Below are positions 43,025 to 45,247 of a DNA stretch of 64,000 nt, piece after piece. How positions within the stretch are numbered: the first letter of the stretch is position 1; each line of letters starts with the position of its first letter. The notes under the pieces are model-generated. The model was not told the DNA's origin and searched no databases. It saw nothing but the letters and a program-made list of their open reading frames with translations. Origin of the DNA: Bacteroidota bacterium (lineage in GTDB: Bacteria > Bacteroidota > Bacteroidia > Chitinophagales > JADIYW01); the NCBI GenBank assembly GCA_963169645.1, contig CAUJCO010000012.1, forward strand, positions 1 through 64,000. Direction: 5' to 3'. The position numbers and the translations under genes were made by a program.

Positions 43025-44446
43025 ATGAAAAAACATGTAGTACTTATTTTATTATCAATTTTAGCTTTTTCTTGTAAAAAAGGAGAAGAAGATACTAAAA
43101 TTACTTACGAAGAAGACCCAACTATCATCCAAGACCAATATGGAAGACAACTTATTCTACATGGTTTAAATACAGCAAATAATTCTAAAGCAGATACACT
43201 CAGATCTCCATGGATTACCGAAGCAGATGTGGATAGAGAAGATAAACAATTTGGTTTTAACTTTGTTCGATATCTAATTTTTTGGGATGCTATCGAACCT
43301 CAAAAAGATGTTTTTGATCCTGTTTATTTAGATAGAGTAGAAGAGCGTGTAAACTGGTACACCTCTCGTGGAATGTATGTAATGTTGGATATGCATCAAG
43401 ATTTATATTCCATCATTTTTGGTGGTGATGGTGCACCGGCTTGGGCTATTCGTTCTAATGGAGCTTCACCTATCAACTTGCCGGGCGGCACACCATGGTG
43501 GTTAAAAAATATCGATCCTGCGGTTGTAAATTGTTGGGTAAATTTTTGGGCATATACCAATCATAAAGATTTACAAGACCATTATATTTTAGCATGGAAA
43601 TACGTAGCAGAACGTTTTAAAAATAATCCGTATGTAATCGGGTACGATTTAATGAACGAACCGTGGGGTGGCGATTTAATTAAATCATTTATTACCGGCG
43701 AATTCGAACGCGTACAATTAACAGCTTTCTATAAAAGATTAATTCCGGCATTGAGAGAAGTAGAACCTAATAAATACTTTTTCTTTGAACCAACTCCGGC
43801 TCCTGTAACATTTGGTGCTCCGTCGCATTTGTCTAAAATTACTGACTCTCGTAGCACTTCAAAATTAGTGTATGCACCACATTGTTATCCGTTTGATACA
43901 CACGAAGGCGGTGGTTATACTTCTACCTCTAAACAACAATTAAAAGATTGGGAAAGAGAGCGTTTAAAAGATATTAAATTGCATAATAATACACCATTAG
44001 TAGTTGGCGAATATGGCTTATCATACGGACAAGCTGGTTTTGATCAATACTTGAAAGATTTCGGTGCTATGATTGATAGAAATCAATGGCATAGTACGTA
44101 TTGGAGTAACGATTTAGGTGGTTGGAGCCCATTAGATGAAAATAGAATGGAAACACCAATCTTACCATTGATAATGAGAACATATCCGAAGGCAACTGCC
44201 GGAAAAATTAAATCTTTTGGATTCGACCCGGATACAAAAATCTTTAATATGACCTTTACTTCCAACGCGGATATCAATCAGCCAACTGAAATATTTGTGC
44301 CGAATCGACATTACCCTACAGGCTGGGATTTGACTGTCACCGGAACAACAAATTATACACAGAATTTTGACAATACAAAACAAGTATTGAAGTTTTCTAC
44401 ACCGGATGATGCGAAAGAAATCACGATATCTATAACTCCGAAGTAG
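43025..44446 (+). CDS. GH5 lipoprotein, endoglycoceramidase-like
   Basis: A 473-residue glycoside hydrolase with a lipoprotein signal (LLSILAFSC, acylated C17, followed by KKGEED). The catalytic domain has NFVRYLIFWDAIEPQKDVFD and MYVMLDMHQDLYSIIFGGDG, and the acid/base and nucleophile Glu residues are E212 in DLMNEPWGGD and E329 in VVGEYGLSYG. The 'LDMHQD...GDGAPAWA' pattern resembles endoglycoceramidases, which cut between the glycan and ceramide of glycosphingolipids, more than typical cellulases. A C-terminal beta-sandwich (about 390-473) is also usual in that group. A sphingomyelin-synthase-like gene follows 111 nt later. The substrate is inferred from the family. Confidence 0.82.
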   Translation: MKKHVVLILLSILAFSCKKGEEDTKITYEEDPTIIQDQYGRQLILHGLNTANNSKADTLRSPWITEADVDREDKQFGFNFVRYLIFWDAIEPQKDVFDPVYLDRVEERVNWYTSRGMYVMLDMHQDLYSIIFGGDGAPAWAIRSNGASPINLPGGTPWWLKNIDPAVVNCWVNFWAYTNHKDLQDHYILAWKYVAERFKNNPYVIGYDLMNEPWGGDLIKSFITGEFERVQLTAFYKRLIPALREVEPNKYFFFEPTPAPVTFGAPSHLSKITDSRSTSKLVYAPHCYPFDTHEGGGYTSTSKQQLKDWERERLKDIKLHNNTPLVVGEYGLSYGQAGFDQYLKDFGAMIDRNQWHSTYWSNDLGGWSPLDENRMETPILPLIMRTYPKATAGKIKSFGFDPDTKIFNMTFTSNADINQPTEIFVPNRHYPTGWDLTVTGTTNYTQNFDNTKQVLKFSTPDDAKEITISITPK

Positions 44447-44557
44447 ATAGCGTGTTTTTTTTGTTAAAAATTAGTGAAAGGATACTTTATTTTTTGAAGA
44501 TATATATTCAATAAAAGCTATAATGAGTATTTTAGCGGTTAAATTCTGTTAAAATAC

Positions 44558-45247
44558 ATGTTGTCTGCATACTTTAGAACTATTTTCCAAAATTGGTCGG
44601 CTTTTTTAAGTCAGAAAAACTTTAGATGGCATTTTATCTTCACCATGCTTTCTTATTTTTTCTTATTTAAATACAGTCGTATTGTAATGACAATTTTAGA
44701 AAATAGAAAAGGTACACAAATCTTTGATAAATTTTTAGCATTACTGCCGTCCGTAGATTCATCTACTACAATATTTATTTTAACATATTCTGTATTGTTT
44801 ATTTTTATTCTAACATGTATTCCCAATCCGGAACGGTTTTTAAAAGCAATGCAAGCCTATTGTTTATTGATGGTGATGCGAACCATTACCATCTACTTAG
44901 TACCATTAGAACCACCTATTGGATTAATCGTATTAAAAGATCCGGTTTCTAATTACTTTATGAGTGGACATCATGGAAGCTATATTTTAAAAGATTTATT
45001 TTTCTCCGGACACGTATCTACTGCGATGTTGTTTTTTATTATCTCCGAAGATAAACGCGTGAAATATTTAATTCTAACACTTTCAATCGCCATTGCAAGC
45101 TTAATTTTATTACAACATGTACATTATTTAATGGATGTGGTAGCTGCACCTTTCTTTTCTTTATTAGCGTTTACAATTGTTCGTATGGTACACAATGATA
45201 TTCAAGTACCGGTTTTCATAAAACGACGAAGCAATAGTAATCATTAA
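44558..45247 (+). CDS. PAP2-type membrane protein resembling sphingomyelin synthase
   Basis: A 229-residue polytopic membrane protein with about six hydrophobic segments. The catalytic triad pattern of the sphingomyelin-synthase/PAP2_C group is visible: KDLFFSGHVSTAMLFFI (H152) and QHVHYLMDVVAAPFFSL (H189 and D193). Known members transfer a phosphoryl head group to ceramide, or act as lipid phosphatases. The neighbouring GH5 protein (endoglycoceramidase-like) strengthens a sphingolipid link, but proof of the substrate is missing. It could also be a phosphatidylglycerol-type phosphatase. No signal peptide is needed. Confidence 0.75.
   Translation: MLSAYFRTIFQNWSAFLSQKNFRWHFIFTMLSYFFLFKYSRIVMTILENRKGTQIFDKFLALLPSVDSSTTIFILTYSVLFIFILTCIPNPERFLKAMQAYCLLMVMRTITIYLVPLEPPIGLIVLKDPVSNYFMSGHHGSYILKDLFFSGHVSTAMLFFIISEDKRVKYLILTLSIAIASLILLQHVHYLMDVVAAPFFSLLAFTIVRMVHNDIQVPVFIKRRSNSNH

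Follow-up and report, generated by a model that had tools for sequence, protein, structure and literature searches.

An endoglycoceramidase-like lipoprotein gene beside a candidate ceramide phosphotransferase gene in a Chitinophagales genome without detectable serine palmitoyltransferase

Endoglycoceramidase II (EGCase II) of Rhodococcus belongs to the glycoside hydrolase subfamily GH5_28 (PMC3526467). Known bacterial ceramide synthesis proceeds by serine palmitoyltransferase (SPT), an acyltransferase (bCerS) and a reductase (CerR) (PMC11087976). Ethanolamine phosphoceramide (EPC) is a major lipid of Bacteroidota; a 2022 study described its biosynthesis as not worked out and reported that B. 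thetaiotaomicron had yielded no homologue of EPC synthase (PMC8791184). For the mammalian enzyme SMSr, the reported in vivo activity is that of a phosphatidylethanolamine (PE) phospholipase C rather than that of a ceramide phosphoethanolamine (CPE) synthase (PMC12594915). Our literature searches, which covered few subscription journals, retrieved neither a named bacterial CPE synthase nor a salvage route based on an EGCase.

We analysed a window of 64,000 nucleotides, the whole stretch from position 1 to 64,000 of contig CAUJCO010000012.1 (assembly GCA_963169645.1). The source assembly comprises 2.70 Mb in 14 contigs, and its completeness is rated 100%. Its nearest named relatives were Chitinophagales MAGs, and the closest isolate-named relative was Go_SlAct, apparently from activated sludge. 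The source organism is considered a freshwater/sludge-type bacterium.

The gene pair and its two proteins

The window holds a gene for a GH5 protein, followed by a gene for a PAP2 membrane protein (Table 1). When the open reading frames were re-read, the coordinates, the gap, the motifs and the residue numbers given for both genes in an earlier sequence-only reading all proved correct.

Table 1 Features of the GH5-PAP2 locus, in window coordinates.
Feature	Position	Strand	Remarks
GH5 gene	43025..44446	+	473 aa; catalytic barrel and C-terminal beta domain
Predicted lipoprotein signal peptide MKKHVVLILLSILAFSC	43025..43075	+	C17; mature start CKKGEED; read by eye from sequence
GH5 E212, acid/base	43658..43660	+	E233 of EGCase II in alignment; invariant in 20 homologues
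GH5 E329, nucleophile	44009..44011	+	E351 of EGCase II in alignment; invariant in 20 homologues
GH5-PAP2 gap	44447..44557	.	111 nt; 93-111 nt in the other four pair-holding genomes
TTTTGTTAAAAATTAGTGAAA element, 21 nt	44459..44479	+	after the GH5 stop; common to G005, G004 and G006, with 0-3 differences
PAP2 gene	44558..45247	+	229 aa; SMS/SMSr-like PAP2_C membrane protein, candidate ceramide phosphotransferase
PAP2 R108	44879..44881	+	invariant; segment aligns with the R-x-x-T segment of SMSr
PAP2 H152 in DLFFSGH motif	45011..45013	+	motif invariant; aligns with DYMFSGH of SMSr
PAP2 H189 to D193 (HYLMD), second catalytic motif	45122..45136	+	aligns with HYSID of SMSr

Among solved structures, GH5 was closest in sequence to Rhodococcus EGCase II (phmmer, E 1.4e-78, residues 32-472), and the best cellulase match was partial (6e-12). 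The Pfam families Cellulase and Glyco_hydro_5_C (67.6 bits) both scored above their cut-offs. The AlphaFold model (pLDDT 89.6) had EGCase II as its best fold match (Z 52, rmsd 1.9-2.0, 426 residues), followed by EGCase I (Z 43) and endogalactoceramidase (Z 39), versus Z about 27 over 280-310 residues for cellulases. In the alignment with EGCase II (38% identity), K66, H135, Q136, D137, W178, N232, E233, H304, Y306, E351 and W382 were identical, and positions 297 and 311 of the outer glycan site differed. We take K66, H135, D137, N232, Y306 and W382 to be the glucose-site residues of EGCase II.

The LDMHQDLYS and GDGAPAWA patterns and both glutamates, which had suggested an endoglycoceramidase at first reading, were present, and the match to EGCase II, the Pfam matches of the PAP2 protein and the retention of both genes in five genomes together went far beyond chance. 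A cellulase or other GH5 enzyme was ruled out by fold, sequence and active-site residues, and the fold scores (Z 52 vs about 27) upheld the grouping with EGCases rather than cellulases. The NCBIfam equivalog for endoglycoceramidase I (NF051847) gave 186.5 bits against a cut-off of 700 bits; membership is not claimed, because this narrow model describes the EGCase I and not the II type. Since sequence, fold and tested active-site residues all match EGCase II, GH5 is by homology very probably an EGCase-type enzyme, a statement that concerns the well-supported activity class and not the glycan preference.

Divergent second GH5 copies were seen at L072 7367-8767, L090 10314-11780 and L101 3595-5025, in tandem with the first copy in G006 and G001. 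They keep both glutamates and have lost the HQD site (135-137) and W382 of EGCase II; possibly their substrate has changed.

The PAP2 protein matched PAP2_C (32.0 bits) and PAP2_3 (30.2 bits), both past the Pfam gathering score of 27, and the generic PAP2 model stayed below its cut-off (16.6 vs 27.2 bits). PAP2_C was matched by 26/26 aligned homologues, two of which also matched the phosphatidylcholine:diacylglycerol cholinephosphotransferase family. H152 (FSGH) and H189 and D193 (HYLMD), the residues pointed out before, were found in place and are invariant in 27 homologues; the invariant positions further include R108, D128, D146, S150-G151-H152 and Q186. In a search of the PDB with the family profile (A1), human SMSr was the sole meaningful chain (E 1.5e-4), and its alignment takes in the R-x-x-T segment and the SGH/H-Y-x-x-D part. 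The protein model (pLDDT 88.3) has six helices. Its top match was SMSr with bound ceramide (Foldseek 4e-4; Z 16.7, 192 residues), followed at lower scores by Aur1 (Z 12.8), IPC synthase (12.6), LpxE (12.0), LPP1 (11.1) and PgpB (8.9). From the loop charges, the active site is predicted to face the periplasm.

The description as sphingomyelin-synthase-like, also taken from the sequence-only reading, is supported by the rank of SMSr above LpxE, LPP1 and PgpB and by the occurrence of the family in runs with SPT and GNAT genes elsewhere (see below). That the protein acts on ceramide is about an even call. The GH5 assignment is thus held with strong confidence and the PAP2 assignment with moderate confidence, and the coupling of the two is something we infer.

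GH5 and PAP2 adjoin, in the same order, in five of the eight sampled genomes of the genus. In G001 and G002, GH5 occupies this position but has no PAP2 beside it; in G010, likewise with no PAP2 there, GH5 has these neighbours close by. Methylmalonyl-CoA mutase accompanies GH5 just as constantly and is always nearby. Elsewhere in the order, GH5 and PAP2 are unlinked. The adjacency has a single origin, within one genus, and may be accidental. The pair was kept while GH5 drifted to 71-79% identity, which speaks mildly for a joint role.

A scan of the gap for the Bacteroidota-type promoter motif TAnnTTTG gave none, and a terminator scan gave one weak terminator-like stem, at chance level. The TTTTGTTAAAAATTAGTGAAA element within the gap was conserved in four pair-holding genomes (copies at L069 9459, L071 11306 and L072 8793) and had a single exact copy in the whole genome. 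It was not found in G001 and G002, where GH5 stands without an adjoining PAP2. A looser match lies upstream of the unlinked PAP2 gene in G007.

Sphingolipid genes in the genome and around PAP2 elsewhere

SPT was not found in the genome by a Pfam aminotransferase search or by an SPT search, and the sole alpha-oxoamine synthase was BioF, adjoining bioB. None of the 13 genomes searched in the family yielded an SPT. For the SPT search, a Bacteroides sequence served as query, validated by its match to a Sphingobacterium SPT (E 5e-157). A GNAT acyltransferase of the SPT-linked type (A2 profile) was not found in the genome or in the seven other genus members. Judged by its gene content, the organism appears unable to make sphingolipids by the known route. 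The genome and family f1 were also seemingly without glycine C-acetyltransferase (Kbl) and the other alpha-oxoamine synthases that are nearly universal elsewhere in the order.

The sequence-only reading had proposed that the two proteins remodel head groups of the organism's own or a host's sphingolipids, and had itself set absence of spt genes against this. For the organism's own sphingolipids the proposal was rejected, as the genome has neither SPT nor the SPT-linked GNAT. The sphingolipids of others survived as a target. A neutral-ceramidase homologue (G000:C9; L229 6795-8564) matched Pseudomonas neutral ceramidase with E 3.2e-76 and was present in 13/13 family genomes. A second GH5 in the genome (C13:114280) was closest to 6jyz, an endogalactoceramidase. 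Both strengthen this part of the proposal, and their presence, alongside the EGCase, in a genome without SPT points to the use of foreign glycosphingolipids.

Two genes for 3-oxoacid CoA-transferase-like subunits come after the neutral-ceramidase homologue. The homologue has no apparent signal peptide; it would be unusual for a ceramidase-like protein to stay inside the cell.

The genome encodes phosphatidylserine decarboxylase, and PE is therefore expected to be formed. Myo-inositol-phosphate synthase was not found in the genome or family. Given this presence and this absence, phosphoethanolamine would be the likeliest head group.

Neighbourhoods were counted at 80 named loci, for which the PAP2 motif was the sole criterion of choice. 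SPT lay within four genes of PAP2 in 3/80 loci and a GNAT acyltransferase in 6/80, where 0.2-0.4 loci were expected at ~3,500 genes per genome (Poisson about 8e-4 for SPT and 2e-6 for GNAT, rough figures because the loci are partly related). In L155, the genes for SPT, GNAT, an NAD-dependent epimerase and PAP2 stand in a row on one strand, and this SPT passes the NCBIfam model for Bacteroidota SPT, NF047600 (697 vs 640 bits). The order is SPT-GNAT-PAP2 in L204 and PAP2-SPT-GNAT in L209, and L161, L174 and L179 have GNAT-(epimerase)-PAP2 without SPT nearby. In six further genomes of the order, the SPT-linked GNAT was again an immediate or close neighbour of SPT. Chryseolinea is one carrier of a GNAT-linked PAP2 gene. 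Because known bacterial ceramide synthesis uses SPT, bCerS and CerR, the GNAT in these runs is probably bCerS-like and the epimerase CerR-like, as read from gene context. The PAP2 family, lying in runs with SPT, GNAT and an NAD-dependent reductase, is a good candidate to be a synthase of phosphosphingolipid (ceramide phosphoethanolamine).

The GH5-linked PAP2 proteins formed one clade of a maximum-likelihood tree, in which those linked to SPT were scattered over several places; the window's own subclade had no SPT- or GNAT-linked member. Within the order, PAP2 was present in 11/23 genomes with SPT versus 19/76 others, a weak tie (Fisher p 0.07). Over the phylum, about 70 of the 392 genomes sampled carried the PAP2_C family; none of those whose SPT is nearest to that of Bacteroides did.

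Co-occurrence of PAP2 and SPT over the phylum was discounted as support: all 50 PAP2 genomes outside the class have SPT, which says little because SPT is almost universal there. In family f45, PAP2 lies ~6 kb from SPT in 6/7 genomes. This was first counted as support and then discounted, because EttA-like ABC-F, PEPCK and agmatinase-like genes sit nearer to PAP2; in one genome of this family (G153), PAP2 stays with the EttA-like ABC-F and PEPCK genes and SPT is elsewhere.

At 13 other Bacteroidota loci, PAP2 had a phytanoyl-CoA-dioxygenase-like (PhyH) gene as neighbour, in most cases together with a short-chain dehydrogenase (L152, L159, L162, L163, L167, L170, L183, L188, L198, L216, L218, L082 and L084). 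These recurrent neighbours may modify the same lipid as PAP2.

Possible salvage of foreign ceramide and competing explanations

The observed homology, folds, residues, gene content and gene order can be arranged into a two-step scheme. Because GH5 is homologous to EGCase with all tested active-site residues kept, it would act as an outer-membrane lipoprotein EGCase (GH5_28-like) and cut the whole glycan off a foreign glycosphingolipid, leaving ceramide. The fold, the motifs and the family context in other genomes suggest the second step, in which the PAP2_C protein, with its periplasm-facing site, would take a phosphoryl head group from a phospholipid. The donor would most likely be phosphatidylethanolamine, giving phosphoethanolamine via a histidine phospho-intermediate, and transfer of this head group onto ceramide would yield ceramide phosphoethanolamine and diacylglycerol. 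As there is no ceramide synthesis by the known bacterial route, the ceramide for this step would have to come from the first. Part of the freed ceramide may instead be degraded by the neutral-ceramidase homologue encoded elsewhere. The substrates, the head group, the direction of flow and the transport of ceramide are what we infer here. Joint work of GH5 and PAP2 in ceramide salvage is a tentative reading, whose chances we put somewhat below even.

GH5 keeps its locus without PAP2 in G001, G002 and G010, and the ceramidase homologue is constant in the family (13/13 genomes), as would be expected if the EGCase and the ceramidase homologue simply fed on foreign glycosphingolipids. PAP2 would then have no functional tie to GH5 and would trim or exchange the head groups of glycerolipids, as a PE phospholipase C or in PE:diacylglycerol exchange. 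Such a role agrees with the PE phospholipase C activity reported for mammalian SMSr (PMC12594915), with the 2/26 homologues matching the cholinephosphotransferase family, and with the many PAP2 carriers without SPT. However, it leaves the SPT- and GNAT-linked runs of the PAP2 family unaccounted for, and the best fold match lies in the ceramide-bound branch. We regard this purely catabolic explanation as doubtful, if quite possible.

Other alternatives concern the PAP2 reaction itself. The protein could use ceramide with a different head group, phosphoinositol (as Aur1 and BT1522 do) or phosphoglycerol: its PAP2_3 score (30.2 bits) is close to that for PAP2_C, SMSr is followed in the fold ranking by Aur1 and IPC synthase, and an AUR1-like IPC synthase, BT1522, exists in Bacteroides (PMC8791184). 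This is improbable, given that genome and family have no myo-inositol-phosphate synthase and that SMSr stands about 4 Z units above Aur1. Membership in the PAP2 superfamily, and the same fold in LpxE and LPP1 at Z 11-12, would also suit an ordinary lipid-phosphate or undecaprenyl-diphosphate phosphatase, in which case the pair would have no joint meaning. But the generic PAP2 model is under its cut-off (16.6 vs 27.2 bits), SMSr leads in the sequence and the fold comparisons alike, and the family is linked to SPT and GNAT in other genomes, so that a plain phosphatase seems equally improbable.

If the salvage of foreign ceramide is true, some bacteria get membrane sphingolipids by salvage and not by synthesis, and SPT-based surveys would therefore miss them. 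The PAP2_C family is a directly testable EPC-synthase candidate for the lineages that carry it. The wider claim, that phosphosphingolipids are formed by salvage without a de novo pathway and that PAP2_C is the missing bacterial CPE synthase in SPT-bCerS-CerR runs, is conceivable and on the whole unlikely.

Relation to known systems

GH5 shares with Rhodococcus EGCase II (GH5_28, PDB 2OSW/2OSX) both domains and the tested catalytic and glucose-site residues. Unlike that enzyme, it is a Bacteroidota lipoprotein, and it differs at positions 297 and 311. Pseudomonas neutral ceramidase (PDB 2ZWS) has a GNLSPN motif where the homologue of this genome has GDVSAR; the homologue is unlinked to the gene pair, and a signal peptide was not seen.

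The PAP2 protein has the six-helix PAP2_C fold of human SMSr (SAMD8, CPE synthase / PE phospholipase C, PDB 8IJQ), and the R-x-x-T segment, D-x-x-F-S-G-H and H-Y-x-x-D are common to both. It differs in being bacterial, with about 18% identity and no SAM domain, and it is known here from its sequence and a model. BT1522 of Bacteroides, an AUR1-like IPC synthase, places a phospho-head group onto (dihydro)ceramide, as proposed for the PAP2 protein (PMC8791184, PMC9246714). BT1522 uses PI, whereas the window genome is without inositol-phosphate synthase; the two proteins are set apart here by description. Unlike holders of the SPT-bCerS-CerR pathway (Caulobacter, Bacteroidota), the window genome has neither SPT nor that GNAT; in other genomes, the PAP2 family joins the runs of SPT, GNAT and NAD epimerase.
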